The position numbers were made by a program, and so were the translations under genes. A model generated the notes under the pieces. It did no database searches. It was given only the letters and a program-made list of their open reading frames with translations, and had not been told where the DNA came from. A stretch of DNA of 64,000 nt from Strigamia acuminata (taxonomy: Eukaryota > Arthropoda > Chilopoda > Geophilomorpha > Linotaeniidae), in the NCBI GenBank assembly GCA_949358305.1, contig OX442323.1:8308001-8372000 (forward strand), in the 5' to 3' direction. This document shows positions 1 to 51,065 of this stretch, piece after piece (position 1 is the stretch's first letter; each line of letters opens with the position of its first letter).

Positions 1-3000
1 ATCCAATTAACCAATTTGGCTTCCTCGTCCTTCTTCTTCCTCTCCTCTTCCTCCCTGAGCGACTGCTCCTCGATCGCTTTCTGCAGGCGCTCCGCTTCGA
101 TTATCCGCAGTTCGTCCTGCTCGATCTCCCACCTCTGTCGCTCCTCCTCCTCTTGGCGGATCCGCTCTTCCTCTTCGCGCTGCAACTGCTCCTGTCTCTG
201 CCTCTCGAGTTCCGCCTCCCTCTCGGCCTGCTCGCGCACCTGGCGACGCCGCTCGGCCAGCGCCGCCTTGGCTTCGCCTTCCGTGGTCAGCCTCGGTTTG
301 CCGGTGGCTGCGGCAGCGGTTTCGGCTGTCGGCGGCGGGGTTTCTTCCCGGCTTGGTATGTTTTCAGTGTTGGCCGTCTTGGCAGTCTCAGCTTCAACGA
401 CCTTTGGCTTTTTAATCTCCGTTTTCGTCTCCGAAGGAATATCTCTAGGTTCGTCCGGGGAAGCTGCGGGAATAGGAGGAGCTTGTTCTACTGTCGGTGA
501 TTGTTTGGGCGAAGCTTTGGCCAGCAATTTCGCAGGTTTGGGTGCAACCTTCAATTACAAATGCAAATTAGTCGCCATGAAAACGTCGGGGTGGGTTCAG
601 GACAGAGTTTTTCATTGGCGAAAAAACCGTACCCGTTACCCGCCCGTTACCCGTCTCCAAAAAAATTCTCTACCCGTACCCGCCCCGTACCCGACCCGTA
701 CCCGACCCGTACCCGACCCGTACCCGAACTCAAACACGATCACAACATCACGTGTGGTTTTTAAGCCAATGCACCTCTCTGGTATGTACAACACAATAAC
801 GCGTACCCGCGCGTACCCGCGAGATCTGTACCCGTACCCGCCCATACCCTACGGGTACGGGCGGGTACGGGTATGGGTACGGGTACGGGTACCCAATGAA
901 AAACACTGGTTCAGGATGCAGGATGTAGTGGTGCAACAAATTTTAAATACATTTTGACAAAATTTCGCACAAAACTCAGCAATTTTTAAAGAATTTCGTA
1001 TAAATTTGTTCAATTCTTGATAAGTTTCGTACAAATTTGATCAGTTTTTGATAAATTTCGTATAAAATTGATCAGTTTTTGATAAATTTCTTACAAATTT
1101 GATCAGTTTTTGATAAATTTCGTATAAATTTGATTAGTTTTTGATAAATTTCGTACAAATTTGATCAGTTTTTGATAAATTTCGTACAAATTTGATCAGT
1201 GTTTGATAAATTTCGTACAAATTTGATCAGTGTTTGATAAATTTCGTATAAATTTGATCAATTTTCGATAAATTTGATCAATTTTCGATAAATTTCGTAC
1301 AAATTTGATAAATTTTGATAAATTTCGTACAAATTTGATCAATTTTTGATAAATTTCGTACAAATTTGATAAATTTTGATAAATTTCGTACAAATTTGAT
1401 CAATTTTTGATAAGTTTCGTACAAATTTGATCAGTTTTTGATAAATTTCGTCAAGGTTTGATAAAATTTTAGTTAAATTTTCGTTCAATATCGCCAAATT
1501 CAAAATAAATCTCAAATAAATTTTCTGTTCGAACAGTCAAAAACCATATTTCCAATGGTTGTTGTTCCACGACTCATCAAAAACCCTTTCAATTACTTTT
1601 GGCTTTTCTCTCGGTGAATTTACATTCGGCTTTTTATGCACAGCCTCAACTCTCGCCGCAGTCGGAGGCTTTCGAGCAGAAGCTGGCGGCGGTGGCGCCT
1701 TAGCAACAGACAGAGAAACATCTCCAACAACCCGCTCAGCACCCACACTCTTTGCTCGGGGAGTCTTCGCCACAGGAGTCGCTAAAAAACAAACAAAATA
1801 AACCAAAAAAACCCAAAAAACACCCAAAAAAAACCCACATTTCCTATTCGTGCTGCGTCCCTGCCTCTCGTCGACACCCTCGACCGAATCCGGAGTACTC
1901 CCGGCAATACTCAACGGTCGATTCGAACGGCGCGCCGGAGTCCGCGCTCTCATGCTCACAGAATTCTGGCTCGCATGACTCGATATCGACTGCTGAGATA
2001 AACTACTATTGGGTCTCGATGGGGAAGATGGAGTCGTTCGTGTCGCTGAAAAATTAAAGAAAATTAAATTAAATTAAATTATTTTTAAAAAAAAATCAAT
2101 CGATTTATTTAGTGGCGAGTAGAAACCGTCGAAATGAAATGCCAGCTTGTTAAAACGCCTCCCCATCAAGCATAGGTCAGTCAGTCACCACCACCATGAC
2201 GTGTGAGCAGCAGAATCGGTGCATGGATTAAGTGATTAAGTGAAAAGACAGAAGAGTGAACACAATGTGGCAACAATAGAGTGAGAAACAGGTCTACGAG
2301 TCTATTCATTTCATACCCACTGAACTGCGATCAGACTCATCGCCGCTAGTCTTCTTCTTGACCAGATGCATCATGCTCTTGCTCATACCTGCGCGGCTGG
2401 CCAGCAGCAGCATGGCATTGGCCCGCAACTGCGACGCCCTGGTCGGCCGTGGTGGCGCTGTGGGCGGCAATTGCCACAAACTCTTGGCCAATGTGTTTTT
2501 CTGTAACGAATTCGAATCGGGTTCGACGCCGTCGCCAATAACTAAGTGCGACAGGCTTTTGCTGGCCGCTCGCGTCTGCTGGAGACGCTTATTGGCCGAC
2601 TGGAGGCGGCGACGGCAAGGGGACGTCGAATGGGCGAGGTGGGTCATGCTCTTGGTTTTGCTGCCGAGCGAATTGGTGGTGGTGACGACGTGCCTGTTTC
2701 CGCGTTGCTCGCTCGATTCGTGCAGGGCTTGCAAGTTCACGTGGGCGCCACGCCGAGGCGCTGCCAGCTGATCCAGGCGCGTCATGCTGAACGCCCTACC
2801 TGGGGATTGGTTGCGCGGACTGTCTTGAACGGCGAGAATCGTCGGGTGCAGGTCCGTTTTCCTTCGTCCGCGGCCCAACGGCACACCTATAGACGTACAA
2901 CTTCGAGTCATCAAATCTTCGCCTGAAAGTCAACGGAAAATTTAATTAATTTTCATAAATTTTCACATTTTTAATTAAATTTAATTTAAAAAAAACATGC

Positions 3001-6000
3001 ACGCAATCAAATTGTGGCCAAATAAAGCGAAGAAACGTACAAAACGTACAAAAACAAACGTAAGGCTTACGGAATCCTTAAATTCTCTACCTAGATCGTA
3101 AAAAGAACGGACTATTAAAGCTTTGACACATGCGCAACTGGCACAAATCTATGAAAACGCTACGAAACGCTAGAACGACGATGTTAGTCGAAAAGTTGTT
3201 TGAAATGTTGTTAATTCAAAGGAATAGAATTGAAATTCGACTGGAGACAATGCAATGAAAAGCGATGTTGTTTTGCTAGACGCTATAGTCTATAGAGGGA
3301 GTTGGGTCAACTAACTCACCAACGAGAACACCCGAGCCCACGAGATTGACGGCAAACCTATTTGAGAAGGCGTGAGGCGGCGGAGGGCAGAGTTCGGTCT
3401 GCGCCTCCTCCCGATCGCACGCCGTCGGGGCACCTGTACGAGAATTAACGGGGAACTTGTCAAGAGAATCCTCAGAGAAAGATGGAGAAACTACAGCGGA
3501 AGACCACTGGGAGAACGGCGCGGAAACACTAGTCAATGACTGCTCCACTGCAAACGGAAATTCCAACGTAAACGATACGAATTAGAAATAATAAATATAT
3601 AATTATATAGTCTAGAAATTAGTCACGGGGTAAGTTCACTTTTCGTTAGATTTACAATTCAAATTCAAATAGATTTCCATTCAAACTTCAGAAAAAATGG
3701 AAATCCTTTTAGATTTTCAGGAAAAAAAAAGAAATCTTTCGGATTTTCAGTAAAAATAAAATTCTCATTCAATTAATTAAGGAAAAATAAAATTTCCATT
3801 AAAATAACGTGAAAAAATAAAAATTTCCGTTAAATTAACGTAAAAAAATTAAAATTCCATAAAATTAATCCGAAAAAATGAAAATTCCACTAAATTAAAA
3901 TGAAAAAATGAAATTTCCATTCATTTTCCAGGAAAAAATAAAATTTCCATTAAAATAACGTAAAAAAATAAAAATTTCCATTAAATTAACGTAAAAAAAT
4001 AAAAATTCCATAAAATTAACCTGAAAAAATGAAAATTCCACTAAATTAAAATGAAAAAATGAAATTTCCATTCATTGTCCAGGCAAAAATAAAATTTCCA
4101 TTCATTTCCCCCCAAAAAAAATAAAATTTCAACTTAAGTATTCGCAGAAAACAAAATAAAATTACAATCCAATAAAAAAAAACGACCTACACCCTAAAAA
4201 AAATTATTTTTCCACCAACCACACCTGTTTTATTATCTAAACTATAGGCCGAAATCGCCTTCTTCTTTTCCACTTCCCTCTCGGCCGAATGCCGACTCCC
4301 ACCGTTGATCATCGACGTCGACATGTTACTCTGCGAAGCCGCACGGCGGCTGCCAAAGTAGCCAGAATCCACGTCGAAAATCCGAGGCGTCGAACTGCCA
4401 AACGCAAACCCGATCGAGCTGCGCTGAGCATTCCTCTTCGCCTCGAGCCTCGTCTCTCGCTCCAAATTCTTCCTTAAAATCGCCTCTTTCCGTTCCTAAA
4501 AACCACAAAAACACATCAAACAAAACCCAAAACCAAATCACCTCTTCTTCTTTCCTCTACCTTCTCCGCCACCCAAATTATCTTCTTCCGCTCCTCCACC
4601 TGCGACCGTCTTTCGTGGTCCCTCATTCTCAACTCGTCGATCTTCCTCCTGCGGTCGTCCTCTTGTTGTTCCCGCACTTTCTGCGCGTGCAACGCCGCCA
4701 ATTTCAATTCGTCCAACTTCTTCTGGCGCTCTTCCGTTTGTCGTTCGCGCAGAATTCGGATCCGTTCTTCGCGGTCCACTTGAGAAAACATTCCTCCATC
4801 TGAAAAAAACAAAAATAAAATAAATAAATCGATAAAAACAACATAAAACGATAAAAACAGCCATTAAATCACGTCAGATTGCTAAATATACAAAATATAT
4901 TCATGCTCGAGACCACAGACAATGGAAATTCCTCATTTAATAAACTTAAAGGCGAAAATCTCCAGTTTGAGACGATGAAAAAGCGGCACAGACACGTTTA
5001 ACAGTTAATCGAACTCGTTTAGTTTGAGAAAAAAGCGTTTTAAAGCGTAAAGTTGGACGTTATAATACCTTGATCTTGGCAGTCACCATTGCCTGCATTG
5101 GGAAACAAGTTGTCACCATCAGCTGCTTGGGCAAACCAATACGAGTCTGCGGTCGTTGAGGAGGGGTCAAAAAAAATAAATAAAAGTTCAATACAAATAA
5201 AAATAAAAACGAAAATAATCGAAGAATCAAAGGATTAGTGATTGGATGCAGACTTTTAATTTTTTATTATTTTTTTTTAAATTTTTTTAAATTTTTTAAT
5301 TTTTTTTTTCCATTCCCATGCAGGTAATGACTTGTATTTTTCCGTTTCGTTTCATTCCAGGTTTTTTTAAGGACCGAATTAGTTGGTTTTTGAAGAAAAG
5401 AAAGTAGTGTCAACGACATGGTTAATTTTTAAATTTTTTTAAATTTTTTAAATTAAAAATTTTTTTAACACCTCATCGTACCTGGGGTTTTGTAATCATT
5501 GGTTTGAATATTTTCTCCTTGTTCTTCCCCAGCACCAGCAAACCAGTACACACCACCTGAAGCACTCACTGATTAACTCAAAACAATAATAATAATCAAA
5601 ACAAAACAATAAAATATAAATATAATTCAAATTATAATCGCGCAACGACGAATTAACAAAAATCTCATTTTTAAATGTAAAAACATTTTAAAAAAATATT
5701 TCGGGTTTTTTTTTCGTGTTCCATCTCGTCTTCAACCCGATAGAACATTATTACGGTCTACAAATGGTTTAAAACGACTCGTAACCACATAAAACGACAA
5801 TTAAAACGATTATGCAACCCGCAGTCGCAGCTAACCCAAAATGGCCGCCACGAAAAACATCAAAACATCAAAAAACATTTAAAAAAATAACATTTAAAAC
5901 AACACGTATCCACCACTCTTAGCAAAAATAAAAATCTTTAAACAAATCTTTAAAAACTCGCCATTTTTATACCTTTCAATGGCGACTTCCCAGGAGTAGA

Positions 6001-11162: not shown

Positions 11163-11212
11163 AAAGAGAGATATTTCTATTTATTTTATTTTTGTGAATA
11201 ATTTATTCGCGT
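11163..11212. terminator. 50-bp convergent 3' region shared by TMEM39 and the YccV-like gene
   Basis: The TMEM39 stop codon ends at 11162 and the stop of the opposing gene begins at 11213. On the minus strand an AATAAA lies at 11207-11202, only 6 bp past the YccV stop, with more AATAAA-like words behind it. Any normal cleavage distance puts both 3' ends inside each other's transcribed region. Confidence 0.6.
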
Positions 11213-13047: not shown

Positions 13048-14558
13048 ATGGACGAGGAGCCCGTGGCACGAGCTCTGCTGGTGGCCGGCGTCACCTGCTT
13101 GACCGTCGGACTCGTCACGCTGGCCCTGGGCATCGTGTTTGTGTTCGTCGACCTCCACGACGCCGAATTGCTCGTCGTTTGGGTCGTGGCGATCGCGAGT
13201 GGCGTCGGATCCATCGTTGCCGGCGCGCAGGTCTCGTCGTTCACATGTCACGGACGCAGCGCGCGACCGCTCGGCGTTTGCTGTTTGGTCGTGTTCGTCG
13301 GCTCGGTCGTGGTCGGAGTCGGACTGCACGTCGCGCTCAGCGTTTTGTCGTCGTTTCACGTGATGAAAGGTAGAGAATTAATTAGTTTTTTAATGGCGAA
13401 TAATAATAAAAATTGAGTTGTTGTTTTATGAGTCATTGGGAAAGGTGTTTTGAAATGTAAACTTGATTTTTAGATGCGATTAAGTGTTTGGAAATGGAAA
13501 TTAGAATGGAAAAGAAGCGGGTTAATAGATACGATTGTTCAGAAAGGAGGAAGAAAGTTTCTTCATTCTTTGTTGTCACGTGACGGAGTGGATTTCCTGT
13601 CGGTTGACGGCGGAATTTGCGGTTTTTTGAGTGATAATTTATTTAAATTGTATGGGTTGGTTTTTAATGTTGGGAAAATGTGTCGTTTAGGGAATGGAGG
13701 GAGGAGTTTGGTTGGTTTGGTTTTTTTTATTTTTATTTTTATTTTGGTTTGGATTTTTGGTGTGGTGGGGAGAGGAAGAAGAGTTTATTTAGTGTGACTC
13801 CGTTTCCGCGCGGTGATTCAGGAGCGTTATGGATAAATGGGTTTTTTCTTTAAAGGAATAAAATGGAGTTTTAATGAGTTGGATTCAGTCGTCCCTTGTG
13901 AAATTTAGGAGAAATGTTGTTGGGATTTTTTTAGATTGGGTTTAATTTTTAGAGGAAACAAAGGTCAATTTTATAGAGAAAAAAAGTTCAAGGTTTTGGA
14001 TGAAAAAAAGTTCAATTTTTTGGATGAAAAAAAGTTCAATTTTTTGGATGAAAAAAAGTTCAATTTTTTGGATAAAAAAAAGTTCAATTATTTTGGATAA
14101 AAAAGTTCAATTTTTTGGATAAAAAAGTTCAATTTTTTGGATAAAAAAAGTTCAATTTTTTGGATAAAAAAGTTCAATTTTTTGGATAAAAAAGTTCAAT
14201 TTTTATCCAAAAAAGTTCAATTTTTATCAAAAAAAAGTTCAATTTTTATCCAAAACAAGTTCAATTTTTATCCAAAAAAAGTTCAATTTTTATCCACTTT
14301 TACGACAATTAACTTTCTGTTTGTATTTCGTCCCAAGAAATCGAAAACCCGTTTGGCCCCAACACTTAAAAACAAACCACCAAACATTTACTTTCTCTAT
14401 CCATAGATGGCAGCCACAAAGAAATTTTCATCTTCTTCCTCGCTTCATCCACCATCCAGATGGCAGCACTCGTGATGGCCCCACTTCTACTCGCCTGCAA
14501 TTCCCACATAAAGGTACAAAACCCAAAAAATATAATTCTAATAATTCCAACAATTCCC

Positions 14559-14623
<65 letters not shown>

Positions 14624-15664: not shown

Positions 15665-15975
15665 TTTCCAACAATTTCAATGGAAAAACATGATTTTATC
15701 AATAATTTCAATGGAAAATGATGATTTTATCAATAATTTCAATGGAAAATGATGATTTTATCAATAATTTCAATGGGAAAACATGATTTTACCAATAATT
15801 TCAATGGAAAATGATGATTTTATCAATAATTTCAATGGGAAAACATGATTTTGTCAACAATTTCTATTGAAAATTATGATTTTGTCACCAATTTCAAAGG
15901 AAAATGATGATTTTCTCAACAATTTCAATGGAAAACACGATTTTTACAGCAATTTCAATGAAGAAACACGATTTT
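15665..15975. repeat. 31-bp minisatellite downstream of the tetraspan gene
   Basis: Roughly ten copies of CAATAATTTCAATGGAAAAT plus GATGATTTTAT (31 bp). It begins about 95 bp after the stop codon at 15570, so it may lie in the 3' UTR or just beyond it. Confidence 0.9.
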
Positions 15976-18084: not shown

Positions 18085-18087
18085 ACG

Positions 18088-19074: not shown

Positions 19075-22000
19075 ATGGGACACGGCGCTTCTTCGTCGAC
19101 GAAATCCATCGTGTGTCATCGGAAATCATCGTCGTCGTTAATATCTTCGCCGATTTCCATGGGAAAGTCTGAAAGACGTAAGAAAAACATTATTTTGTAT
19201 TTTTTTATTTTCTGTTTCTTCAAAAAAAGCAACCCCTTTCGCTTCACTGCAATACTGCACAACAAAAACACGAAAACAAATTTTTTTTTTTGCGTTTCTT
19301 TTCGTTATTGTTGAATTTAACGCTACGAAAATCGATTTTTGCGATTTTTTTCTTGTCTACTTAGCAAACACTATTAAAAGAAAATATTATTTCCTTTAAC
19401 TATTTTCTTCATTAGCGAAATTAATTTTCTGCATGTCGTAATTAATCCTGCCCCTTTTCCTACAAATATGCCTCCTTGGTAATGAGTAATTGCCATGGTT
19501 ACGAGATAATACAATCACCAGTTGGAGCATAAATTTAAAGAATGATAAAAAATTTAAAAAAATTGGATTTCTCGTTTCTACAGAAATTTTCCTGTAAATT
19601 TCTTTAGACAAAAAAGCGAGAAAAGAAAGAAATCGATGCGTAAAAAGAAAGTTATTTTAAGGGCCGGCCCCGTATGGATTTGAGCTAAAAATGTGCAATT
19701 TTTATTTATTTATTTTTCTATTTCCAGTTCTGAGAGCTGTCGTGCTCATTCAACACTGGTACAGACGCTACTTAGCCCGAATGGAAGTGCGCCGTCGTTG
19801 CACGTGGACCATTTTTCAATCCTTGGAGTACGCGGCCGAACAAGACCAACTAAAGGTGCGATGACCATTAAAATTTAAAAATAAAATAAATTTTTTTTCT
19901 CACCAAATTAAATTACTCGAATTTTATAACGCGCGAACGAATTATTCAATTATGTATTCGTGCAAGGCGAACCGTAGGGAATAAAGATATTGACAAAGTT
20001 GGGGAAAATCGATGGAAAATGTTGTCGAGAAGGCAAAAAATGGAGGAAAAGTGATGAAATTGACCCATTAAATCAATCATTCATGCATTTATCCATTAAA
20101 TTAAATTAAATTAATTAATTTTTATAGTTGTACGATTTTTTTATCTTGATGATTGACCACCTGCAGCAACTGAACGACGTGGCCCACAAATTTTCGTCGT
20201 TCATCACGCAGGAGCAAGAAAACGCGGAACCGGGTGAGTTGTTTACGCGCAGCATGTAGGCGGTTGTTTGGCTACAATTTTCACCTAATTTGGCAGCCAT
20301 TAAAGACTTGCAACTGCTGAAATCCACTAATCCTCTGAGCATTAAGGTGGAGAATTCCTATAAAGGTCCACATCTCAATTTCCCGCTGAGGAAAGTGGAT
20401 TTAGAAGCCATGATCGAGGCTTTTCGCAAGAAAAAGGTGCTGTGTAGTGAGTTTTTGGAGGAAATTTGCGGGATTGAATTAAGGGATTTAATTTTATGAC
20501 AGATTTTGCACGCTAAATACGCGTTGCAGTTGCTGCATGAGGCGAGGCTGCTGCTCAAAACTAAACCGAATATTAGTAAAGCGTCTACGTACCTGTCGCA
20601 TCAAATTACCATCTGTGGGGACTTGCATGGAAAGCTTGACGACCTTCTTGTTATCTTCCATAAAGTAGGTTCTGCAAACAAGTTTTTATACTTTGCGAAG
20701 TCGTGTTTGTGTGTAGTTTTATAATTAGGAAAAGCTATTGCCACCGAATTTTTCAAAATGATTACAGAAATCATTAAAATTCATCAAAATTCATCAAATA
20801 TTTCCAAAATATCGTTGAAATTCATCAAATATTACCGAAATATCATTGAAATTCATCAAATATTTCCGAAATATCATTGAAATTCATCAAATATTACCGA
20901 AATATCATTGAAATTCATCAAATATTACCGAAATATCATTGAAATTCATCAAATATTTCCGAAATATCATTGAAATTCATCAAATATTACCGAAATATCA
21001 TTGAAATTCATCAAATATTACCGAAATATTATTGAAATTCATCAAATATTTCCAAAATATCGTTGAAATTCATCAAAATTCATCCAATATTTCCAAAATA
21101 TCGTTGCAATTCATCAAAATTCATCCAATATTTCCAAAATATCGTTGAAATTCATCAAAATTCATCCAATATTTCCAAAATATCGTTGAAATTCATCAAA
21201 ATTCATCCAATATTTCCAAAATATCGTTGAAATTCATCAAAATTCATCCAATAGTTCCAAAATATCGTTGAAATTCATCAAAATTCATCCAATAGTTCCA
21301 AAATATCGTTGAAATTCATCAAAATTCATCAAATATTTCCAAAATATCGTTGAAATTCATCAAATATTACCGAAATATCATTGAAATTCATCAAATATTT
21401 CCAAAATATCGTTGAAATTCATCAAATATTTCCAAAATATCGTTGAAATTCATCAAATATTTCCAAAATATCGTTGAAATTCATCAAATATTTCCAAAAT
21501 ATCGTTGAATTTAATCAAATATTTCCAAAATATCGTTGAAATTCATCAAAAACTTCTTAAATTCTGTCAAAACCATCAAAATTTATAAAACGTCGAAATT
21601 TCTCATAAACCAAACAAAATCGACCAAAAACTCCCCAAAAATCCAACAAAATATAAAAATATTAAATAAAAAAAAAAAATTCAATCAACATTTTGTCCCT
21701 CAAATAATTTTTAACGTTCCCCCCGACGTCATTGTTTGCCCTCCCATAAACCCAACGCTCCTCAAACCCCTTCCACATGCACTATAAAATTCCATTCAAC
21801 GACCCAACAGATGAGCTTCAAATTGCTCCCAACAAAAAAAAAAATAAAAAAAAAAATAAAAAAAAAATAAAAAAAAACCTAATCCCCTTTCTTCCCCCTC
21901 AAAGAACGGACTTCCATGTGCAGAAAATCCGTATGTGTTCAACGGCGATTTCGTCGACCGAGGCAAAAACTCGAGCGAAGTATTATTCATCCTCCTGGCC

Positions 22001-31600: not shown

Positions 31601-34600
31601 AATTGAAAAATAGATAATGTTTTTTCTTCGCCCCTTGAAAACAAACAACTTTTCTCCGAATCATTTTCAAATCAAATGCTTTGTTTTGCTCTAATTTAGA
31701 AATATCACGTTAGGTGCTTCATATCAATCAAATTAGTTCTAGATCAATGATTTTAATAGCTTAGAATCGAAATTTTTTAATAAAAATTGATTTTAAGATA
31801 GATTTCAACTACTAAGTAAGAAAAACACAAAAGTTTGTGTTTTTAAAAACCTTGGCTATTCCCCTTTAAACTTTTTTACCGAAAAAAAAAAATAAAAAAA
31901 AATAAAAAATAAATAAATTAAAAACACCACGTTTGTTTTTGAAGCAAAACCTTAATTCCAATACTCTAAAATGTCATTTTTCTTGTTCCCCGCTGTAAAA
32001 AGTCCCACTCAACCGCTGCCCCTTACTACGCCACCGGGGTGCTTATCCGCAACTCACTTGGAAATAGGCGACGATCCTCAGTCCGATTGTGGCCACGTAA
32101 AGCGAGTTGGTTGTGAAGTCGATGATATTCCACATATCACTGACATACTCGAGAAGACCTTCCTCCCACAGCTGCTTGATCTCGTTCCAAATCAGACCTC
32201 CAATTGAAAAAAATAATTATTTTTTTATTTTAAATTTAAAATTTAAAATTAAAAATTTTCTAATTAAATTACCTAACACCCAGGCGATTATCATCCACTC
32301 CACAAAACTCGGTAACTCGCCTCTTTTAGTGGTTTCTTCCTTCTTCGTGTAGTGTCGGATTATTTCATCCTCGGAGCCGAACCACTTTGAAACGACTGTC
32401 TCGATGCGTTGAGAAGCGAGGATGAGTAAAACTGCAATCAATGCGTCAAATAAAACGTGATTTAACGCCAGAAATCTCTCTTTAAAGCCGTCGATTCGAT
32501 TTAAAGCGATAATTAAATTGAAAAGACAGAGAAAAGAAAAAAAGTAAGTTGGATAAAAAATTTACACAGGAACGTGACGTAGGAGGCGGAGTGACAGATG
32601 AATTTGATGAAGGGCTTTCTCATCGTCTGGCCCAATCGACAGTGCGGAAGGAGAACGTAGACGCAGGAGTAAACGGGAAAGAGGAAGCCAATGCGGATTA
32701 TCTCCAATGTCTGCAGTAGTATGTTCTTGCGACGGAAGCCCGGCAAACCGTCGTACCACAGCGACGCCAGCAACTGCTGCACGTTCGGATGCGACACAAA
32801 CTTCAAATTAGAATAGAAAATTAGATTAGACATTTTGCGATTGTTTGTGTTTTTGTTTGGTTTTTCGCACTTTTTTCTGCTTGTATTTAATGGCCAATTT
32901 GAGTCTGTTTAGATGCATCCGTTCGCCGTGCTCGAAAGCGGGGCCTGTTGGGTCGTGATTGAGCAGCACCTCCAATTCGTAAGACGAACGCGTGTGATCC
33001 AAAAGTGCAGTACCAAAATCCGTGCATTGACGACGCAAATCCTGTCATTTTTCAGTTCAAAATTTAAATTTTTTCGATTTATTGTAAAACACTTTTTTCA
33101 AATTCCTTTCCAGTTTTTTGGAATTGTTTTGGAATTGTTTTGCAATTGTTTTGCAATTGTTTTGCAATTGTTTTGCAATTGTTTTGCAATTGTTTTGCAA
33201 TTGTTTTGCAATTGTTTTGCAATTGTTTTGCAATTGTTTTTGAATTTTTTCGGAAATGTTTTGGAACTTTTTAAAATTTTGAATTTTATTGAATTTCTTT
33301 GATTTTCTTTGAATTTCTTTAAATTTCTTTAAATTTCTTTTAAATTTCTATAAATTTCTTTGATTTTCTTTGATTTTCTTTGATTTTCTTTAAATTTCTT
33401 TAAATTTCTTTAAATTTCTTTAAATTTCTTTAAATTTCTTTAAATTTCTTTAAATTTCTTTAAATTTCTTTAAATTTCTTTAAATTTCTTTAAATTTCTT
33501 TAAATTTCTTTAAATTTCTTTAAATTTCTTTAAATTTCTTTAAATTTCTTTAAATTTCTTTAAATTTCTTTAAAACTTTTCTATTTTTTTATTGGACTTT
33601 ATTCGAAACTTTTCCAATAATTCCCATTCAATCTACCTGATATTCGTTTTTAAACTCATGTTCGAGAAAACTAAGCCGACGCAGCTCCCAGCTAAGTTCG
33701 AAGGCGGTCAAAATGGGGTCCTTGCTGGATAGAGCGATGAGGGAGGGGCTGGCCAAGGCGCGGTACGCGTTAATGCGAGAGCGCGAATGACGTAAACTAT
33801 CCTCCTGACGTGAAGTGACGCACTCCTCGCATCCACATCGCACGTCGTGCGGCATGGGCAACGTGGCGCCACGGTCCAAAAGTATCTTGAGGATCTCGTA
33901 ATTATCGCGATGGGCTGCCAGGATGAGCGGCGTGATGTCTGGCGTGAACGTGGCCGTGTCGCGGTCCAGCGCCTCCCAACTCTTAACCAAAAAAAAATAA
34001 AAATATTAAAAAATAATCAATAAATAATAAAATTAAATTAAATTAAAAAAAAAAAAAAATTTGTTGTTGGCAAAATGGAACTTACATGGGGCTCACCAGG
34101 TTTCCGCAACCGTTCTTCATGGTCGAGCAGCACCTCGACAGCCTCCACGTATTCCTCGTGGATAGCGTGCAGGAGGGCATCTTTAATCTCGACCCCTCCT
34201 TCGAGAAGCAGCTCCACCATCTCCAAGTTCTCGTTATCAATCGCCATGAGCAACGCCGTTCGTCCCAGCGGATCCATGCAGTTGATGTTGATGTAGCCAG
34301 TGTCTCGCGCACGATCCAACGATCTAGAGAATTATTGCATAGAATCGTTTACATGCACCGCCGGTGCCCGTCTGGACGCACAACTCGCGAGTTTGTCACT
34401 CAAAAGTCACACACTCGGCGCTCACGGTAGATAATTACACGCTAGTTGAGTAATTAAAGGATAAATAATAAATAAATAAATTTCACGCTAAATTGCAATT
34501 CGCTACAGAAAAATAAATTATGCAATTCGTTAATTACAGTGCGCAAATAATGTGTAACGTGTAATAAAAAGTCGAGCTGCAATCGTAAATCGCTTGCACC

Positions 34601-35655
34601 GCTAATGCTCTCGTTGAGCGCGGGATGCCGGTTGAACGCGACTAGAAAATGCAAAAATTTTCAAGTCCAAAAGTGCAATCTGAGGTGCAAAAAGCACTTT
34701 TATGTGCAAAAATGCACTTTTTGTGTGCAACAATGCACTTTTTATGTGCAAAAATGCTGTTTTGTGTGCAACAATGCACTTTTTATGTGCAAAAATGCTG
34801 TTTTGTGTGCAACAATGCACTTTTTATGTGCAAAAATGCTGTTTTGTGTGCAACAATGCACTTTTTATGTGCAAAAATGCTGTTTTGTGTGCAACAATGC
34901 ACTTTTTATGTGCAAAATTGAACTTTTTATGTGAAAAATTACACTTTTTATGTGCAAAATTGTACTTTTTATGTGCAAAAATGCACTTGTGTGTGCAACA
35001 ATGGACTTTTTATGTGCAAAAATGCACTTGTGTGTGCAACAATGCACTTTTTATGTGCAAAATTGCACTTTTTATGTGCAAAAATGCACTTTTGTGTGCA
35101 ACAATGCACTTTTTATGTGCAAAATTGCACTTTTTATCTGCAAAAATGCACTTGTGTGTGCAACAATGCACGTTTTATGTGCAAAAAAGCACTTCTATAA
35201 GCAAAAATGCATTTTTCAAGTCCCAAAATACATTCTTTAAGTCTAAAAACGCATTTTTTAAGTCCAAAATCCAATTTCTATGTGCCAAAAATGCATTTTA
35301 AAGTGCCTAATGACGTATAAAAACCGACTTTTAGAGATTGCAAATCAATTTTAATTATCGCCTAATCATTTAGTACGCGGGGGAAATTCAATCCACAGAG
35401 CGCGAGTGTTCTACGAAACCATTCACGATACTCGAGAGTTGGCTTCCCTGCAAAACGCTTGATTCATTCACTTCACCTGCGCACAGTGGCGAGATCTCCT
35501 CGTTCCACAGCCAAGAGGAATTTCTTCTCCTCCAAAGTGAGCGGTGTTTCTTGAGGTAACCGATTCGGGGCAATTGGGGTAATTGGGGGTAGCGAAGGCA
35601 GATGTGGGACCGGTGGCACCCCATCGCCTTGCGCCTCGCCCTCTTCTTCGTCCAT
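25610..35655 (-). CDS. Trpgamma: TRP-family cation channel (TRP/TRPL/TRPgamma type), exon 13 frameshifted
   Basis: Fourteen exons on the minus strand: 35655-35477, 34323-34086, 33981-33637, 33041-32871, 32800-32566, 32431-32273, 32197-32058, 30828-30713, 30645-30373, 30019-29824, 29496-29299, 29221-29180, 28267-28074 and 26736-25610. Without a 10-bp duplication in exon 13 they give 1200 aa. Order: [16 protein letters not shown], ankyrin repeats (to about residue 200), the [20 protein letters not shown] linker block, six membrane helices, pore region [20 protein letters not shown]6 with [16 protein letters not shown], and TRP helix [16 protein letters not shown]. Next comes the RNLVRRYVT...EDDVNEI coiled coil, then a 375-residue Ser/Thr/Pro-rich tail on one exon (starting [18 protein letters not shown]). 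Closest to insect TRPgamma/TRPL by memory; the exact paralogue is uncertain. Confidence 0.95.
26815..26856. mobile_element. hAT terminal-repeat fragment in the last TRP intron
   Basis: ACACGGTTTCTTAAACTTTT followed by ACGCGACCCCGGG has the form of many hAT ends (CAGTGTTTCTTAACC...CGCGACCCC). No partner end or target duplication was found. Confidence 0.35.
26904..26947. repeat. 44-bp near-perfect palindrome
   Basis: GAACCAAGGATAACATGGAC continues into ACGTGT and back to GGTTC with only one mismatched pair out of 22. There is no spacer, so it can form a cruciform or a tight RNA hairpin in the last TRP intron. The centre CACGTG is also an E-box. Confidence 0.85.
27237..27471. mobile_element. 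MITE-like element with perfect 40-bp inverted repeats
   Basis: The arm 27237-27276 (TATACTCTGGCCATGTGTAA and on to CGAGCC) is repeated without a mismatch in reverse at 27432-27471. The 155-bp centre is non-coding. The TATA at both tips would fit a TA target duplication of the Tc1/mariner type. Perfect arms suggest recent insertion or gene conversion. Confidence 0.75.
28556..29130. repeat. 21-bp minisatellite in TRP intron 12
   Basis: About 27 copies of a 21-bp unit around TGCATTTTTGCACCTAATAA. The left part has a higher-order block repeated about every 124 bp (GAACCTTAAAGTGCATTCTAG recurs near 28576, 28700 and 28804). The right part is the variant TGCATTTTAACGTCTTAAA. Open frames across it are repeat artefacts. 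Confidence 0.9.
31103..31727. mobile_element. Degenerate DNA element with long inverted ends in TRP intron 7
   Basis: The left end TACAGGGTGAAGCACCTAA and the right end (reverse of 31700-31725) share TGAAGCACCTAA and the following ATTTCTAAA with few mismatches. Further in, GTTGTTTGTTTCGAGGGGC at the left matches the reverse of the sequence near 31628-31655. The inverted arms are thus over 80 bp long. A second TACAGGGTGTCCC lies inside at 31213. No transposase frame is seen. Confidence 0.6.
33112..33242. repeat. 11-bp tandem array in TRP intron 3
   Basis: About eleven copies of TTTTGCAATTG, nearly identical. Confidence 0.95.
33296..33575. repeat. 10-bp tandem array in TRP intron 3
   Basis: About 25 copies of TAAATTTCTT, the central 18 or so identical. 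AAATTT recurs exactly every 10 bp, the textbook arrangement for intrinsically curved DNA. It lies next to the 11-bp array in the same intron. Confidence 0.95.
34665..35305. repeat. 20/41-bp minisatellite in TRP intron 1
   Basis: Units such as TGCAACAATGCACTTTTTAT and GTGCAAAAATGCTGTTTTGTG alternate to make a 41-bp repeat, then diverge into 20-21-bp variants toward the right. Because the unit is not a multiple of three and holds no stops on the plus strand, it gives overlapping Cys-rich open frames up to 199 codons; these are not genes. Confidence 0.95.
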
Positions 35656-36884
35656 GCTTACACGTCTTGGACCCGTAGCGACAGCTCGATGCCAACGCTA
35701 CCTCGATACGTGAACCTGCAAGCGAAACACGACACATTTTATCACTCTGTGATTGATAATGATTAATGACGCTGCACATCGCGTCCTAACCTCGAAATAT
35801 CCACCTCTGGTGTTGATAATATTTTTTAAAAAATGCAAATTTTGATTTTTTTGGCTTTTTTTAAGCCAAAATGGCGAATTTTGGTTTTTTTGGTTTTTTT
35901 AACCATTTTTCAACGTTAATACTCGATAAACCTACTAACATAGAAGCTTTTTTTCTATTTCTCGTCTGCTAGCGGAGGAAACTTGAACTGAGAACAGATA
36001 ATCAATAAAATCGGGGCCTGGCAGCCTTGCATTACAAGAATGAAAGTTATTCCAATTATCTTACGGTGCAGCCGCCATTTTTTATCCGGAAGAAAAAAAA
36101 ATAAAAATAAAAAAAAATATTGGACATTTTTATTTATTTTTATTTATTTTTTTTATATTTTTTAATTTAAAAAAAAAAAAAATAGAGATAAAATCCAAAT
36201 ATCTCTCTCCATCAATTTCACCAGGACATTGGCAACGGATTCTCCAACTCACTTTTTATTTATGGATTCAACCCATTTCGTTTGATTTGTGTATTTAGGA
36301 AGAAAGGGAATAAAAGCCGCCATTGTGGTCGTAAATAAATGCCAATTTAACTGATGAATTTCATTTTTTTTTCAAATTTAACCAAATTAAAAAAAAAAAA
36401 TTTTTTATCCTTGCGGTAGTTTACTCAATCTGTGCTGGTGTTAAACCAAAAGATCAATGAGTAAAACTCCCGTGACAAACAAAAGAGGGGCTCCAAATCT
36501 GTTTTTTATTAGTTGTGCGTGAACAAACTCAACTCGCGAGCTTATAAAATAACGTCATTGATTTCTGCTCTCTTCGGAAAAGTTCATTTAGAAAAAAAAA
36601 AAAAAAAAAACAAGTAAACAAATCATAGTGAGTCCCAACTTCATCCCAAAGTAGAAAAAACAAACATAAGATACATGAAGCGAAGCATGAAACGACTCAA
36701 TTTGCCTTATGGAAATCCCTCTCGCTATAACTTGGCTGTGCACCGGTAATTTAGAGCGGAGATGAACACAAACAAACGACTTGGACTCGGCCAAGCGAAG
36801 GTCGTTTACCTCTCGCACCTTCGGTTCGATATATTTCTACAAACTCGCCTCATGACCCGAATTCCCCACAAAACAACAAACATT
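35656..36884. other. Upstream of TRP: AT-rich spacer
   Basis: Should include the TRP promoter and 5' UTR. Many A and T runs; no coding signal seen. Confidence 0.4.
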
Positions 36885-38215
36885 CCCGAATTTCACGAGA
36901 TTTCCCAGAATTGCACTCAATTTTCCCGAATTTCACTAAATTTTCCAGAATTTCCCTAAATTTTCCCAAATTTCAGTAAATTTTCCAGTATTTCACTAAA
37001 TTTTCCCGAATTTCACTAAATTTTCAAGAATTTTCCAGGATTGCACTAAATTTTCAAGAATTTTTCCGAATTGCACTAAATTTACTCGAATTTTACTCAA
37101 TTTTCCAGAATTTCACTCAATTTTCCAGAAATCCACTAAATTTTCCAGAATTTCACTAAATTTTCCCGAATTTCACTAAATTTTCCCGAATTTCACTAAA
37201 TTTTCCCGAATTTCACTAAATTTTCCAGAATTTCCCTAAATTTTCCCAAATTTCAGTAAATTTTCCAGTATTTCACTAAATTTTCCCGAATTTCACTAAA
37301 TTTTCAAGAATTTTCCAGGATTGCACTAAATTTTCAAGAATTTTTCCGAATTGCACTAAATTTACTCGAATTTTACTCAATTTTCCAGAATTTCACTCAA
37401 TTTTCCAGAAATCCACTAAATTTTCCAGAATTTCACTAAATTTTCCCGAATTTCACTAAATTTTCCCGAATTTCACTAAATTTTCCCGAATTTCACTAAA
37501 TTTTCCAGAATTTCCCTAAATTTTCCCAAATTTCAGTAAATTTTCCAGTATTTCACTAAATTTTCCCGAATTTCACTAAATTTTCAAGAATTTTCCAGGA
37601 TTGCACTAAATTTTCAAGAATTTTTCCGAATTGCACTAAATTTACTCGAATTTTACTCAATTTTCCAGAATTTCACTCAATTTTCCAGAAATCCACTAAA
37701 TTTTCCAGAATTTCACTAAATTTTCCAGAATTGCACTAAATTTTCCAGAATTGCACTAAAATTTCCAGAAATTCACTAAATTTTCCAGAATTTCACTAAA
37801 TTTTCCAGAATTGCACTAAATTTTCCAGAATTGCACTAAAATTTCCAGAAATTCACTAAATTTTCCAGAATTTCACTAAATTTTCCAGAATTGCACTAAA
37901 TTTTCCAGAATTGCACTAAATTTTCCAGAATTGCACTAAATTTTCCAGAATTCCACTAAATTTTCCAGAATTGCACTAAATTTTCCAGAATTGCACTAAA
38001 TTTTCCAGAATTCCACTAAATTTTCCAGAATTCCACTAAATTTTCCAGAATTGCACTAAATTTTCCAGAATTGCACTAAATTTTCCAGAATTGCACTAAA
38101 TTTTCTAGAATTGCACTAAATTTTCCAAAATTGCACTAAATTTCCCAGAAATTCACTAAATTTTCCAGAATTCCACTAAATTTTCCAGAATTGCACTCAA
38201 GTCCCCCGAATTTCA
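36885..38215. repeat. 20-bp satellite with a 280-bp higher-order repeat
   Basis: About 66 copies of AATTTCACTAAATTTTCCAG type. From 36941 a block of fourteen 20-bp units is repeated with an exact period of 280 bp: TTTCCCTAAATTTTCCCAAA recurs at 36951, 37231 and 37511. The right part (from about 37720) is a simpler array of TTTTCCAGAATTGCACTAAA. Internal changes occur in 10-bp steps, so no phase is lost over 1.3 kb. Confidence 0.97.
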
Positions 38216-39274
38216 CTCAAAAACCAACAAACCGCGCATCCAAAACGCACAAAAATTCATTTTTCCTTAACGCAAACCGAATTTTAAAAGACAGGTGTGC
38301 GCACAAATAAAGAGAAATGGCGTGCACTTTCTTGTGTGCGTGGATACATCTGCTCAGGTCGCGTAATTGGCTTGGCAGACGCCCAAACGACTCCATGAAA
38401 ACCTCCGAAAAGAGCTTGAGGACACCCCTTTCCAATCCCGACCAAAAAAAAAAAAATATGCGAGAAAACATACGGGAAAAACAAACTCCAATCGCAAAAA
38501 AAATTATTAAATAAACTCCATTTTAGCGCGCGCCTTTAGGCCTCGTTCCGCCAAAAAACACTTTTAAACGCGCCATAAGCCGACAAACTCCTTAGACTCG
38601 TCACGTGGTCCAGAGAAATCATTAATGAAAGCAAAAGTTCAACGAACTTCTCCACATTCGCCGCCCCCGGATCGACGGCCATGAATCAATTCCTCGCCAC
38701 AGCAAAAACCGAGTTAGAATTTAAACCCGCCGCCATCTTTTTTTTTCTTTTCATTAAATATTCAATTTTTTTTCGGCGTCTTACGTTTTCTGTTGACCTA
38801 ATTAGAGGAAATATTTCGAGTTTTTGATGATACGTTGGGAGATGGGTCTTATGGGGGGGTGCGGGAGGAAAAAATGCTTTATTATGAACGGTCACGTAAG
38901 CGCAGAGTGCGCAGGCGCAGTTTGGGTTGGGCTCAGCCCTTGGCTCGGGGTCCCTCGTCAAAGCAGTGAAATCTGACACACAACCACGAAACTACTTGAT
39001 TTCCCTCGAGAAAAATCGAACAGTAATGAAAAAGACGAGACATAATGCGGCATTATGTCGTGCATTAACTCCGTAATGCTACTTGACACTCGATTCCGTC
39101 AAAATGGCGTCCGAATTCATCAAAATTTCATCAAAATTTCATCAATTTCATCAAAATTTCATCAAAATTTCATCAATTTCGTCAATTTCATCATTTTTAT
39201 CCTTAAAAAAAAATGTTTACTCGCAAAATCAATCGAGAAAATCAATTTAGAATCGATCAAAGCTTTTTAAAAAA
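38216..39274. other. Unique spacer, no gene found
   Basis: Mixed composition. A short 15-bp repeat (CATCAAAATTT) lies at 39116-39190. No conserved protein or RNA recognised. Confidence 0.4.
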
Positions 39275-39815
39275 GGTTTTAAAAATGTAGAACGCGTTTT
39301 AAAAGGGTAAAATGCGTTTTAAGAAATTTCAAAAGCGTTTTAAAAAATGTCAACTGTTTTAAAAAATGTCAAAAGCGTTTTTAAAAAGGTAAAATGCGTT
39401 TTAAAGATGGTAAAATACGTTTTAAAAAGATAAAACACATTTTAAAGAAATAAAACGCGTTTTAAACAGATAAAATGCGTTTTAAGCAGATAAAATGCGT
39501 TTTAAAAAAATAAAACGAATTTTAAAAAAGTAAAACGCGTCTTAAGAATGTAAAACAAATTTTAAAAAAGTAAAACGCGTCTTAAGAAGATAAAACAAAT
39601 TTTAAAAAAGTAAAATGCGTCTTAAAAAAGTAAAACGCGTTTTATGGAAAGTAAAACGCGTTTTATGGAAAGTAAAACGCGTTTTATGGAAGGTAAGACG
39701 CGTTTTATGGAAGGTAAGACGCGTTTTATGGAAGGTAAAACGCGTCTTAAAAAAGTAAAACGCGTTTTATGGAAGGTAAAACACGTCTTGAGAACTTAAA
39801 ACGTGTTTTACGTTA
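39275..39815. repeat. Degenerate ~20-bp minisatellite (AAAACGCGTTTT family)
   Basis: Units of 18-22 bp centred on AAAACGCGTTTTA. The right end settles to a 21-bp form GGTAAGACGCGTTTTATGGA. Each unit carries an MluI-like ACGCGT palindrome, so CpG density is unusually high for a satellite here. Confidence 0.9.
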
Positions 39816-40300: not shown

Positions 40301-40335
<35 letters not shown>

Positions 40336-42655: not shown

Positions 42656-43300
42656 ATTCTCACAGTTTGTGGTTAAAAATTGTAAAACTCCTCATATTTT
42701 GTACAGAAAAATTCAAAATTAAAAAATTTTGCCCTAAAAAATTCTAAATTTCCCAAATTTTGTCCCGAAAAATATAAAAATTCTAAAAAATTGTACAGAA
42801 AAATTCCCAAATACTTAAATTTTGTACAGAAAAATTCTCAAATTCTTAATTTTTGTAACTAAAAAATTCTTTATCCTCAAAACTTTGAACTTAAAAAATA
42901 AAAAATAAAATTTCCTTAATTTTCTATTGAAAAATACAAAAATTTCCACATTTTATACCAAAAAACGTAAAAATTCTCAAACCTTGTATAGAAAAATCCT
43001 CAAACTCAAATTCTAACTCAAAAAATTAAAAAAAAAAAAAATTCTCAAATTTCTCCCAGAAAAATTAAAAAATCCTCAAATTTCTCCCAGAAAAATTAAA
43101 AAATCCTCAAATTTCTCCCAGAAAAATTAAAAAATCCTCAAATTTCTCCCAGAAAAATTAAAAAATCCTCAAATTTCTCCCAGAAAAATTAAAAAATCCT
43201 CAAATTTCTCCCAGAAAAATTAAAAAATCCTCAAATTTCTCCCAGAAAAATTAAAAAATCCTCAAATTTCTCCCAGAAAAATTAAAAAATCCTCAAATTC
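42656..43300. repeat. 31-bp minisatellite
   Basis: The left part (to about 43025) is degenerate. The right part has eight or nine almost identical copies of CTCAAATTTCTCCCAGAAAA plus ATTAAAAAATC (31 bp). Confidence 0.93.
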
Positions 43301-45640
43301 CCTCCAAAAAATATTTTAAAAAACCCAATTCCCCCCAAAAAACATAAAAAAAACCCCTCCAACTCACCCTCCTTTCACCACATGATTGACACTCAATTAA
43401 AATAAAATTAAAACCTAAACCCCATCTTCCACCCAACCGAACAACTACAAACTGATTGACTAATCCCTCGATCCCTTCGATCGACGAACCGCCACATCCA
43501 CAAAGTGCACCTTTACTTATTACTTAATAGGGAGCCATCATACCGAATTCCCTTTCCACAAAGATTAACCGAAAATTGCCCAATAACCTCGGCACCAGTT
43601 CAAGCTCCTTTCCCTCAACCAAACTCACGCGAGGGACCACGAAGCCCCCTTTTAATGAGCGCTTAAACGCACCACACCAAATTGGCTGACAAGTCATAAT
43701 CAACTCGTCCATCGAATCACTTACGACGACCAAACGACCCCCAATGACTGACACAACGGTCCGCCGGGGCCACAGCGTCGTTAAATGTCCACGGAGCGTC
43801 GAGCCTCGAGTGGGAGCGTCGTCGTCCAACGCCATGTTTGTCCGTCTCATCGTCCAAATGCCAATGTCTGTCGTTCGGATCAATAACTCACTAATTCCGG
43901 GCGTTTTATCGACTCGCAATCCGAAACAATTCACATCCTTGACCTTCATCGAACTTGTATTAATTCATAGTTGATGAGGAGCCGTGAGCGAGGGGTTGTT
44001 AAAGTGCGTGCGAAGGAGAGGGGGCACGAGGAGGAAGGCTAAAATATCGAGCACGCCAACTGTTTTCTTTTTTTCCTTTATGCAATGCACGAAACCCAAT
44101 ATTTTGCAACTGATCAACACAGCACAAATTTTCGCTTACAAAATATCAAACTCGTTGAAAAAAAGAGAAAAATAAATCTTTTTTTTTCTCTTTTTTTTCT
44201 TTACGTGCAATATATTTTTAAATTTAGTTTTTGGACGAAATGTGTGAGAATTTGAGCAGAATTGGGCAAAAATGCATTTTGCCCCCGGATTTTAAGCATT
44301 TGAGACTTAAATTTAGTCCAAATATTTACATTTGATATTTTTTAAGTATTTGAAACAAAAATACATGCAAAATTATGCAAAACTGCATTTTAAATAAAAA
44401 AAAATGCATTTTAAGCGTTTGAGACTAAAATGTTGACAAAATTTAGTCAAAACACGCTATTTTCTCTTTTTTTTTAAAGCATTTTAGACTTAAATGTAAG
44501 TAAAATTTAGTCCAAAAATGCATAGTTTTTATTTCTTAAGCATTTGACACGAAAATACGTGCAAAATAATGCAAAATTGCAATTTTTTCGTCCAAATTTT
44601 CTACCACACTCTAAAACCGAGTTCGGCAGCTGAATTTGTGGTTATTCTCCACCAACTTAACGTAATTAGACCACAATTAACTCGGTATGCGAGACGACAA
44701 CAGCTTCGCACTCCTTTCCATTGTCATTCGCGACGAGATAGCAGTTAGTGCGAACAAAAAAGCGATTCAGCATCTTGCAAAAGTTGAAATACATGCCTCG
44801 CACCCGTTTAATTAACCTTATCTGCTTTAAAACTGCAATAAAACGTAAACACGTCCTGACACTTCCTCACGGTCAAAACCAAACATTGCAACTTCCAAAC
44901 TCGCTCCCAAATCCTCGTAAATTCTTCAAACTAAATTTCTCTCGAGACACACACCGGCAAAGCTTATGCCAACGTCTCGACGCACTAACATCAAAAGAAA
45001 ATAAACACCTGCCAACAACATCAACATTAATTTGCATCAAAAAGAGAATATTCGATAAAAAGTCCCGAAAAAATTAGAAAAAAATTAAATTTAAATTTAA
45101 AATAATTTTTTCTAGAAATTAATTTCCACTCAACCATAAATTTTCCTAAATGGGTGTGTAAATGCAAATGACAAACGTGAAAAACGAGCAAAAATAACTT
45201 AGCTTGACATCGGCCAAAAAAAGCTTTCATATTGGTGCTTCAAATCTCCACCAGAGTGCGCTACTACCACATATTCTTACCAGCTGTCAAAAATCGCAAA
45301 ATTGAACACTTTATCTTAAGAAAATACAAAAACAAACAACACAACTTCATAGAGAATTAAATTCTCTACAAAACAGAACTAATTTCAGAATTTATTCCCC
45401 ACTTTATAGCGAAAAACAAAGCGGATTTAGAGTTTTAGTATCAGTAATGGCTAAAGCTGCTATTTTTGCGGAAAATAAATGTTGTTTAAAATGTTTCCAT
45501 ACTTGTGGATAATGGAGCCTTTAGACACTTAATTTTTGCATTCTGAGGATTTTTTTGGTCCGCAATTTCCGCAATCGGACCGCTGTACCGCAATTTTGCG
45601 AAAAATCCGCAATTGGGGTGTCTTGCAAAAATAATATTCA
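43301..45640. other. Unique spacer with a GC-richer island at 43440-44050
   Basis: The island holds open frames on both strands (141 codons on the minus strand at 43949-43524) but none resembles a known protein. It may be a regulatory region or an unrecognised exon. The remainder is AT-rich with loosely repeated TTAAGCATTTGA words at 44280-44580. Confidence 0.3.
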
Positions 45641-45955
45641 TTTTTTCGACCAAAAATTCATCTTTTGGACCAAAATTTCATATTTAGGACCAAAATTTCA
45701 TCTTTTAGACCAAAATTTCATCTTTTGGACCAAAATTTCATCTTTTGGACCAAAATTTCATCTTTTGGACCAAAATTTCATCTTTTGGACCAAAATTTCA
45801 TCTTTTGGACCAAAATTTCATCTTTTGGACCAAAATTTCATCTTTTGGACCAAAATTTCATCTTTTGGACCAAAATTTCATCTTTTGGACCAAAATTTCA
45901 TCTTTTGGACCAAAATTTCATCTTTTGGACCAAAATTTCATTTCTTGGACTAAAA
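45640..45955. repeat. 20-bp minisatellite, nearly identical copies
   Basis: About fifteen copies of CCAAAATTTCATCTTTTGGA. The unit is itself an imperfect palindrome (CCAAAA...TTTTGG). The central eleven copies are identical, so the array is young or kept uniform. Confidence 0.97.
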
Positions 45956-47361: not shown

Positions 47362-47585
47362 GCGTCCTACTTCGTATAGGTTTAAATACTACTTAAGTCC
47401 TGCTAACGTGGTTTACTTTACCTGTGATCAATTAATTAATACCCAAATGAATACTCAATGGTTTGTTGTACGTCGCATCCTACTTCGTATAGGTTTAAAT
47501 ACTACTTAAGTCCTGCTAACGTGGTTTACTTTACCTGTGATCAATTAATTAATACTCAAATGAATACTCAATGTTTTGTTGTACA
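47362..47585. repeat. 112-bp tandem duplication
   Basis: The segment beginning TCCTACTTCGTATAGGTTTA at 47366 is repeated from 47478, through to TTTGTTGTAC. The two copies differ at only a few positions, so the duplication is recent. Confidence 0.9.
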
Positions 47586-50755: not shown

Positions 50756-50764
50756 TCCATTTAG

Positions 50765-51065
50765 TGTTAACCTAACCAAAACGACTAAAATAAACGTCTA
50801 AATTGACCAAAACGACTAAAATAAACGTCTAAATTGACCAAAACGACTAAAATAAACGTCTAAATTGACCAAAACGACTAAAATAAACGTCTAAATAGAC
50901 CAAAACGACTAAAATAAACGTCTAAATTGACCAAAACGACTAAAATAAACGTCTAAATTGACCAAAACGACTAAAATAAACGTCTAAATTGACCAAAACG
51001 ACTAAAATAAACGTCTAAATTGACCAAAACGACTAAAATAAATGTCTAAATGGACCAAAAACACT
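50765..51065. repeat. 31-bp minisatellite
   Basis: Nine to ten near-identical copies of AAATTGACCAAAACGACTAA plus AATAAACGTCT (31 bp). Confidence 0.97.

Follow-up and report, generated by a model that had tools for sequence, protein, structure and literature searches.

Unit lengths of unrelated tandem arrays in a probable centipede genome cluster at whole turns of the DNA helix

The stretch analyzed here (G000:C11:8308001-8372000, 64 kb of a 237.5-Mb assembly; the window) is crowded with short tandem arrays, several of them inside or near conserved genes. The arrays consist of head-to-tail units of 10-100 bp and can therefore be called minisatellites. They were located with Tandem Repeats Finder (TRF) and are collected in Table 1. 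An original prediction, made from the letters alone, had listed arrays of unrelated sequence whose unit lengths seemed to follow the helical turn. Every listed array was recovered, most within about 35 bases of the predicted start; for the 30-bp array the difference is as much as about 100 bases. The two arrays named as exceptions, with units of 16 bp (61187) and 21-24 bp (13956), are real as well.

Table 1. Tandem arrays of the window and the genes that hold some of them.
Position	Feature	Strand	Remarks	Basis
952..1489	31-bp array		also 20/10/62 spacings; AA/TT third harmonic dominant	TRF
3752..4102	30-bp array		start 3692 or 3752; 30/31 spacings, weak phasing	TRF
13956..14291	21-24 bp array		exception; unit length unstable, AA/TT rhythm 11.5 bp	TRF
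15669..15975	31-bp array			TRF
20665..21904	intron, PPEF/rdgC-type Ser/Thr phosphatase gene	+	GT..AG	ends by eye
20787..21550	31-bp array		repeated exact 10-bp additions; 41-bp block 21035-21364	TRF
27937..35785	TRPC (TRP-gamma-like) channel gene region	-	TRP_2, ankyrin and Ion_trans exons matched	N- and C-terminal exons by eye
28539..29121	21-bp array		alternating A5 and T5 tracts	TRF
33116..33263	11-bp array			TRF
33292..33574	10-bp array			TRF
34685..35306	20/21-bp array		alternating A5/T5; 41-bp dimer	TRF
36883..38217	20-bp array, 66 copies		spacings in 10-bp steps	TRF
39116..39193	11-bp array		alternative periods 20 and 31	TRF
39276..39810	20/21-bp array			TRF
42675..42870	31-bp array		degenerate	TRF
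43029..43299	31-bp array		98% matches	TRF
45637..45955	20-bp array		TTTT about ten bases from AAAA; lag-10 identity 0.10	TRF
50775..51073	31-bp array		97% matches	TRF
61187..61723	16-bp array		exception	TRF

Matched exons on both sides place three arrays in introns, and an intronic position is probable for two more. The phosphatase intron (1,240 bp) runs between the exons with the GDLHG and GDFVDRG motifs, and the array at 20787 fills 764 bp of it. The best solved relative of this gene product is Drosophila rdgC; the GDLHG exon alone gave a weak Pfam match (E 0.017). Two further arrays, at 33116 and 33292, sit between the TRP_2 exon and an Ion_trans exon in the TRPC gene on the minus strand; among solved structures, the best relative of this channel is Drosophila TRP-gamma. 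The array at 34685, upstream of the ankyrin exon, probably belongs to an intron of the same gene; the exon before it was assigned by eye and has no Pfam match. The same gene probably holds the array at 28539, where the nearest exons on both sides were likewise placed by eye and have no Pfam match. TRPC and PPEF/rdgC genes are mainly neuronal or sensory in other animals. Three tRNA-Thr genes called by ARAGORN (37716-38175) were taken as false, all lying inside the 20-bp array at 36883-38217. The window also contains a 113-bp tandem duplication (47359-47584, two copies, 97% matches) and a perfect (ATA)21.7 microsatellite (14559-14623).

Outside the window, 16 stretches of 10 kb were picked by place and five were added later (21 stretches, 210 kb; 274 kb together with the window). 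A further set of loci, L002-L008, was chosen by likeness to the array at 20787 and is not a random sample. A unit length was called on quantum when it fell within 1 bp of n x 10.33, as do 19% of the lengths from 9 to 70 bp and 17% of those from 13 to 70 bp. The main array class comprised TRF units of 13-70 bp with at least 4 copies; a looser class comprised units of 9-70 bp with at least 2.5 copies and a TRF score of at least 80. Synthetic arrays were recovered equally at on- and off-quantum lengths, which rules out TRF bias as the cause of quantisation. A first-order Markov surrogate of all 274 kb yielded no array of 13-70 bp with at least 4 copies, which rules out chance as the cause of the arrays.

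Unit lengths clustered strongly at whole turns. In the window, 13/15 arrays of the main class were on quantum (17% expected), as were 9/13 in the first 16 outside stretches; the 21 stretches together gave 9/14 (17% expected; binomial p 1.1e-4). The looser class behaved similarly, with 16/20 in the window and 12/18 in the first 16 stretches. Next to the query matches at L002-L008, all eight neighbouring arrays with at least 4 copies were on quantum (10, 20, 21, 10, 10, 21, 30 and 41 bp), and restriction to 13-70 bp left 5/5. Five alternative ways to choose the primary period did not change the result. Quantisation of the unit lengths of amplified arrays is thus confirmed, also beyond the window.

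Spaced-word searches of the genome gave further arrays. Three copies of TTCATGAT occurred at 234 places. The first 100 listed (C1-C6) were merged by hand into 26 distinct arrays, 17 of which were on quantum, compared with 6/31 lengths (19%; p 4e-7); for a 40-bp array, off quantum, the unit size was taken from the place length. Three copies of GACTCAAT were found at 203 places, and among the first 100 listed four arrays were visible by eye, with units of 11, 21, 21 and 40 bp, the last a GC-rich satellite (20+20). Two copies of TGCAATGC were found at 363 places. The arrays seen by eye among the first 100 listed had units of 34, 11, 10, 21, mixed 36/21, 20, 25 and 21 bp; 5-bp arrays and isolated pairs, most expected by chance, were also among them.

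The quantum itself is less sharp than proposed. The original prediction had fitted the unit lengths to n times about 10.3 bp, and the fit to whole turns held in the window and outside it. However, several arrays have units of exactly 20 bp (10.0 per turn), others of 31 bp (10.33) or 21 bp (10.5), so that the data describe a range, 10.0-10.5 bp per turn, rather than a single exact value. The 41-bp unit proposed at 34665 turned out to be a dimer, because spacings of 20 and 21 bp alternate in this array. The predicted 10-bp steps are present. At 20787-21550 the 10-base block AAATTCATCA is inserted repeatedly, and at 36883-38217 the four commonest words are spaced by multiples of 10 (10 to 70) over 1.3 kb, the first units being 19 and 21 bp long.

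Within most units, A and T tracts were phased to the helical turn, as had been proposed. Among units of at least 18 bp from the window and the first 16 stretches, the strongest AA/TT harmonic was the one nearest 10.33 bp in 21/30; in one of these 21, the unit at 13956, that harmonic lies at 11.5 bp. For 31-mers the count was 10/11. The net AA/TT vector at 10.2 bp reached 18.5 in arrays compared with 5.6 in Markov copies, while array-free DNA gave 5.3 and its Markov copies 4.7. The computed vector exceeded that of Markov copies in 19/27 arrays. Tiled shuffled units, a fairer control that keeps length and tandemness, were beaten at p <= 0.05 by 16/27, with a median p of 0.02 for on-quantum and 0.48 for off-quantum arrays. 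By this calculation the phased A tracts are predicted to give the net curvature that defines curved DNA.

A weaker rhythm of the same kind was found outside the arrays. In pooled array-free DNA the autocorrelation of AAAA/TTTT peaked at 9-11, 20-21, 30-31, 40-41 and 51-52 bp (per-lag values to lag 55), and the periodogram (lags 12-155) gave a best period of 10.14 bp. Across 26 pieces of 10 kb (L015 was dropped, having too little array-free DNA), the on-quantum array bases per 10 kb rose with the strength of the array-free 10.15-bp signal (Spearman 0.59, p 0.0016). Off-quantum array content showed no correlation with it (-0.12). The arrays also tended to share the phase of the flanking DNA at 10.15 bp (mean cosine 0.29-0.31, p 0.005-0.009), and still did so when 40 bp were skipped (0.21, p 0.037). 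Decayed arrays were ruled out as the source of the array-free rhythm: the G/C same/opposite ratio has no clear rise at 10, 20 and 31, and is slightly high, about 1.10, at 9, 21 and 30. One stretch, L017 (C11:1000001-1010000), has a strong 10.15-bp A/T rhythm (ratio 2.13) and no on-quantum array of at least 4 copies; its long open frames look by eye like those of a BEL/Pao-type retroelement.

Quantisation depended on copy number. In the window and the 21 stretches, the on-quantum share was 6/26 below 2.5 copies, 4/20 at 2.5-4, 6/10 at 4-8 and 16/19 at 8 or more. At a score of at least 50 this amounts to 22/29 at 4 or more copies compared with 6/26 below 2.5 (Fisher p 1.3e-4); at a score of at least 80 it was 21/28 compared with 3/10 (p 0.02). 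Of the short exact matches in array-free DNA, the raw material for slippage, 21-23% were on quantum for words of 5-7 bases and 13-22% for words of 8-10; among the most periodic 5% of pieces the share reached 37% at most. A weighted slippage (microhomology) model predicted 20-39%, even in the most periodic 2%, and could underestimate the share because the array-free set omits DNA already turned into arrays. With the two-copy share near baseline and the model at these values, filtering during amplification or retention agrees better with the data than a rule for the first duplication, and a filter that acts after this event is favoured. The original prediction had invoked a process that makes or keeps only helically phased repeats. 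A process favouring such repeats is supported, whereas the idea that only such repeats are made is weakened by the two-copy duplications. As a whole, that interpretation is partly supported.

Naked DNA has a helical repeat of 10.5 bp, and 10.15-10.3 bp is near the value of nucleosomal DNA. The sequence period found here, 10.15-10.3 bp, is below the naked and close to the nucleosomal value, and we therefore propose that the DNA is held in a fixed rotational setting, in which those tandem copies that do not disturb it would spread or survive. Rotationally phased DNA, with An/Tn tracts about 10.15-10.3 bp apart, is in this view a class of sequence present at many places in the genome, and the arrays would be its tandemly amplified members. 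Short duplications would arise at many lengths. Those that keep the rotational setting on a protein surface, be it nucleosomes or something larger, might go on to amplification or retention, and arrays of at least 4 copies would end up mostly whole turns long. Such a filter could result from selection for a chromatin function, or from amplification machinery that works with a bias when DNA is wrapped. That the arrays are amplified DNA resembling the periodic An/Tn clusters (PATCs) of nematodes, here in an arthropod, and that whole-turn duplications are preferentially amplified or retained, is the reading we tentatively adopt, at slightly less than an even chance. A wider form of it seems possible but doubtful: arthropod germline DNA would be held in a fixed rotational setting over long range, duplications would occur at any length but only whole-turn ones would grow or survive, and the minisatellite spectrum would read the packaged helical repeat (10.15-10.3 bp).

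A phase filter would not be needed if the arrays had grown neutrally from sub-repeats of about 10 bp, or by slippage between A tracts 10 bp apart, with 20, 31 and 41 arising as multiples. Real 10- and 11-bp arrays exist at 33292, 33116 and 39116. Some units contain sub-repeats of about 10 bp, with a lag-10/-11 identity of 0.52-0.60 at 952, 20787, 36883 and L013:8421, among others; exact 10-bp steps occur inside arrays, and at other places in the genome the arrays related to that at 20787 have units of 20, 21 or 31 bp. Five phased 21-mers speak against such an origin. In these, an A tract and a T tract lie half a unit apart, and since the tracts alternate and the lag-10 identity is 0.05-0.24, they are not doubled 10-mers. 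Neither the microhomology estimate for array-free DNA, set against the 22/29 on-quantum arrays, nor the near-baseline two-copy duplications fit it well. Sub-repeat slippage explains part of the arrays and is the main rival; as the origin of the whole pattern we hold it possible without expecting it. Helix-phased breakage would quantise the first duplication itself. If the exposed face of surface-bound DNA were cut every ~10 bp, repair of paired cuts would duplicate whole turns, in line with the unit lengths seen here. Data reported for C. elegans oocytes (PMC3819648) agree with this, with DNA cleaved at 10-11 nt intervals and PATC tracts on the protected face. Two-copy duplications should then be quantised, but 6/26 were, or 3/10 at a score of at least 80, and we consider breakage unlikely.

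Two further explanations have little probability. The arrays might act like nematode PATCs, licensing germline expression of intron-bearing genes in heterochromatin. The An/Tn rhythm is comparable, and the intronic arrays described above would suit such a role. However, the genome is that of an arthropod, most likely a centipede, and both host genes are mainly neuronal in other animals, which makes this analogy very improbable. Alternatively, the arrays would not be independent if they belonged to a single dispersed repeat family, or to a few, with a fixed unit length. The 20787 sequence has at least 54 other genome matches at 65-79% identity (40 of 203 candidates scored), and the units at 50775 and L014:6778 share a stretch by eye. 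Yet only 1/351 unit pairs was related beyond shuffles (L014:6778, with 2.6 copies, was left out), as had been predicted for arrays unrelated in sequence; 20/26 families were on quantum, and the 20787 relatives vary in unit length. A single dispersed family was rejected on the pair count, and the few-family version is hardly tenable.

Several observations weigh against the preferred reading, a post-duplication filter acting on rotationally phased DNA. The samples are small, and the window is array-rich, with 10.1% of its bases in arrays compared with 1.2% in the 21 stretches. A single array with at least 4 copies came from the five later stretches, and its 60-bp unit is off quantum. Only 6/17 single pieces (the window and 16 stretches) have an array-free peak at 10.1-10.35 bp, so that the rhythm is patchy, strong at some places and missing at others. 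With the window left out, the Spearman correlation falls to 0.41 (p 0.069). Flank coherence is modest with five periods tested; it is weak at 10.25 bp, and gone at 10.33 and 10.5 bp when a gap next to the array is skipped. The on-quantum 21-mers L016:1 and L019:1039 lack AA/TT phasing, and a GC-rich 40-bp (20+20) satellite on C1 steps by 20 bp without A tracts. At L002-L008, both two-copy duplications of 13-70 bp (L002 and L006, 21 and 21 bp) are on quantum, and adding them makes the two-copy class 8/28. Selection for phase would be expected to make small indels scarce; per substitution they numbered 0.13 on quantum and 0.26 off, a comparison dominated by few arrays in which the aligner seems to have split the 10-bp insertions of 20787 into small gaps.

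Other features were noticed along the way. The GC-rich 40-bp satellite, with two similar 20-bp halves, forms repeated blocks at G000:C1:66241703-66451713, near one end of the largest contig. A 140-bp satellite is present at L015:153-9408 (C9) and L023:7126-9926 (C8), with similar consensus by eye and one array longer than 9 kb; it is a possible centromere or pericentromere candidate. At L009:206-9173 (C1:1.0 Mb), AT-rich tandem repeats lie near several long open frames (260-501 aa) whose kind was not recognised. An open frame on the minus strand of L019:1-639 resembles, by eye, a caspase fragment with a changed active-site stretch. Rfam gave no match in the window or in 14 of the first 16 stretches, and a search for telomere hexamers found none.

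The original prediction had pointed to a nematode setting, which the mitochondrial COX1 gene of the assembly contradicts (contig C157, invertebrate mitochondrial code). Among the best 120 of 7999 sequences scored, its closest match was the geophilomorph centipede Mecistocephalus marmoratus (84%), followed by horseshoe crabs, other centipedes and millipedes, and no nematode was read there. The assignment to arthropods is based on this mitochondrial contig and on the arthropod best matches in the Protein Data Bank, where few species are represented. A nuclear taxon check with one open reading frame of the window gave no match. SL1 was not found in the window, which need not hold such a gene. A weak COX1-like fragment in a nuclear contig (G000:C8:11426194-11426376) is possibly a nuclear mitochondrial insert.

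A real filter would make minisatellite unit lengths a readout of germline DNA winding that can be measured from any assembly, and satellite evolution and rotational positioning would be linked by one testable number. Unrelated arrays with whole-turn units, next to two-copy duplications that are hardly so, are not readily given by standard slippage models. To our knowledge, PATC-like DNA is known from nematodes only; its presence in an arthropod, if true, would mean convergence or an old shared chromatin feature. Curved satellite DNA offers a further parallel. It shares the phased A tracts, which here give a strong net bend signal by calculation. Curved satellites with phased A tracts are known as single families of longer units, whereas unrelated families follow one unit-length rule in this genome.

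Known PATCs of C. elegans likewise carry A and T tracts on one face of the helix at a spacing of about 10 bp, lie in introns and have no fixed sequence (PMC3819648, PMC7725773 and PMC9071541). The arrays described here have An/Tn tracts with a period of about 10 bp and no common sequence between loci. They differ in occurring in an arthropod and not in a nematode, and in that the strongest signal lies in tandem arrays with quantised unit length. In C. elegans oocytes, PATC regions are described as under a strong rotational constraint: the An/Tn tracts lie on the protected face, and their phase is kept for hundreds of bases (PMC3819648). PATCs make up 6-10% of that genome, and PATC-rich introns shield transgenes against germline silencing (PMC7725773). 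A 10-bp "profile periodicity", a latent period without a clean tandem repeat, is given by HeteroGenome for C. elegans chromosome I; the available text draws no relation to tandem unit lengths (PMC4038257). Satellites of Caenorhabditis share the many short units and often the AAAA/TTTT tracts, and one Helitron-linked group is built from a palindromic decamer in approximate multiples. Among the longest satellites listed for C. elegans are units of 16, 20, 25, 32, 34, 40, 43, 59, 68, 94 bp and more, some of them whole turns and many not, and helical quantisation is not described in the accessible part of that source (PMC4595182).

For centipedes, the main text of the Strigamia maritima genome paper does not contain the word "minisatellite", and its accessible passages do not mention unit lengths (PMC4244043). 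In the portions available of the literature on helical tandem units, PATCs and centipede repeats, a whole-turn unit rule was not found stated. The closest parallel among arthropods is Drosophila melanogaster, in which the density of tandem units was reported to peak at 11, 21-24 and 30-36 bp (PMC3152781). The same source gives further Drosophila peaks at 5, 12, 39, 43, 45 and 46 bp with few repeat types per long class, and a long unit class of 17 bp in Daphnia; its accessible text offers no helical reading, and the word "helix" is absent from it. Given the Drosophila peaks at 11, 21-24 and 30-36 bp, the whole-turn rule could extend beyond this genome.

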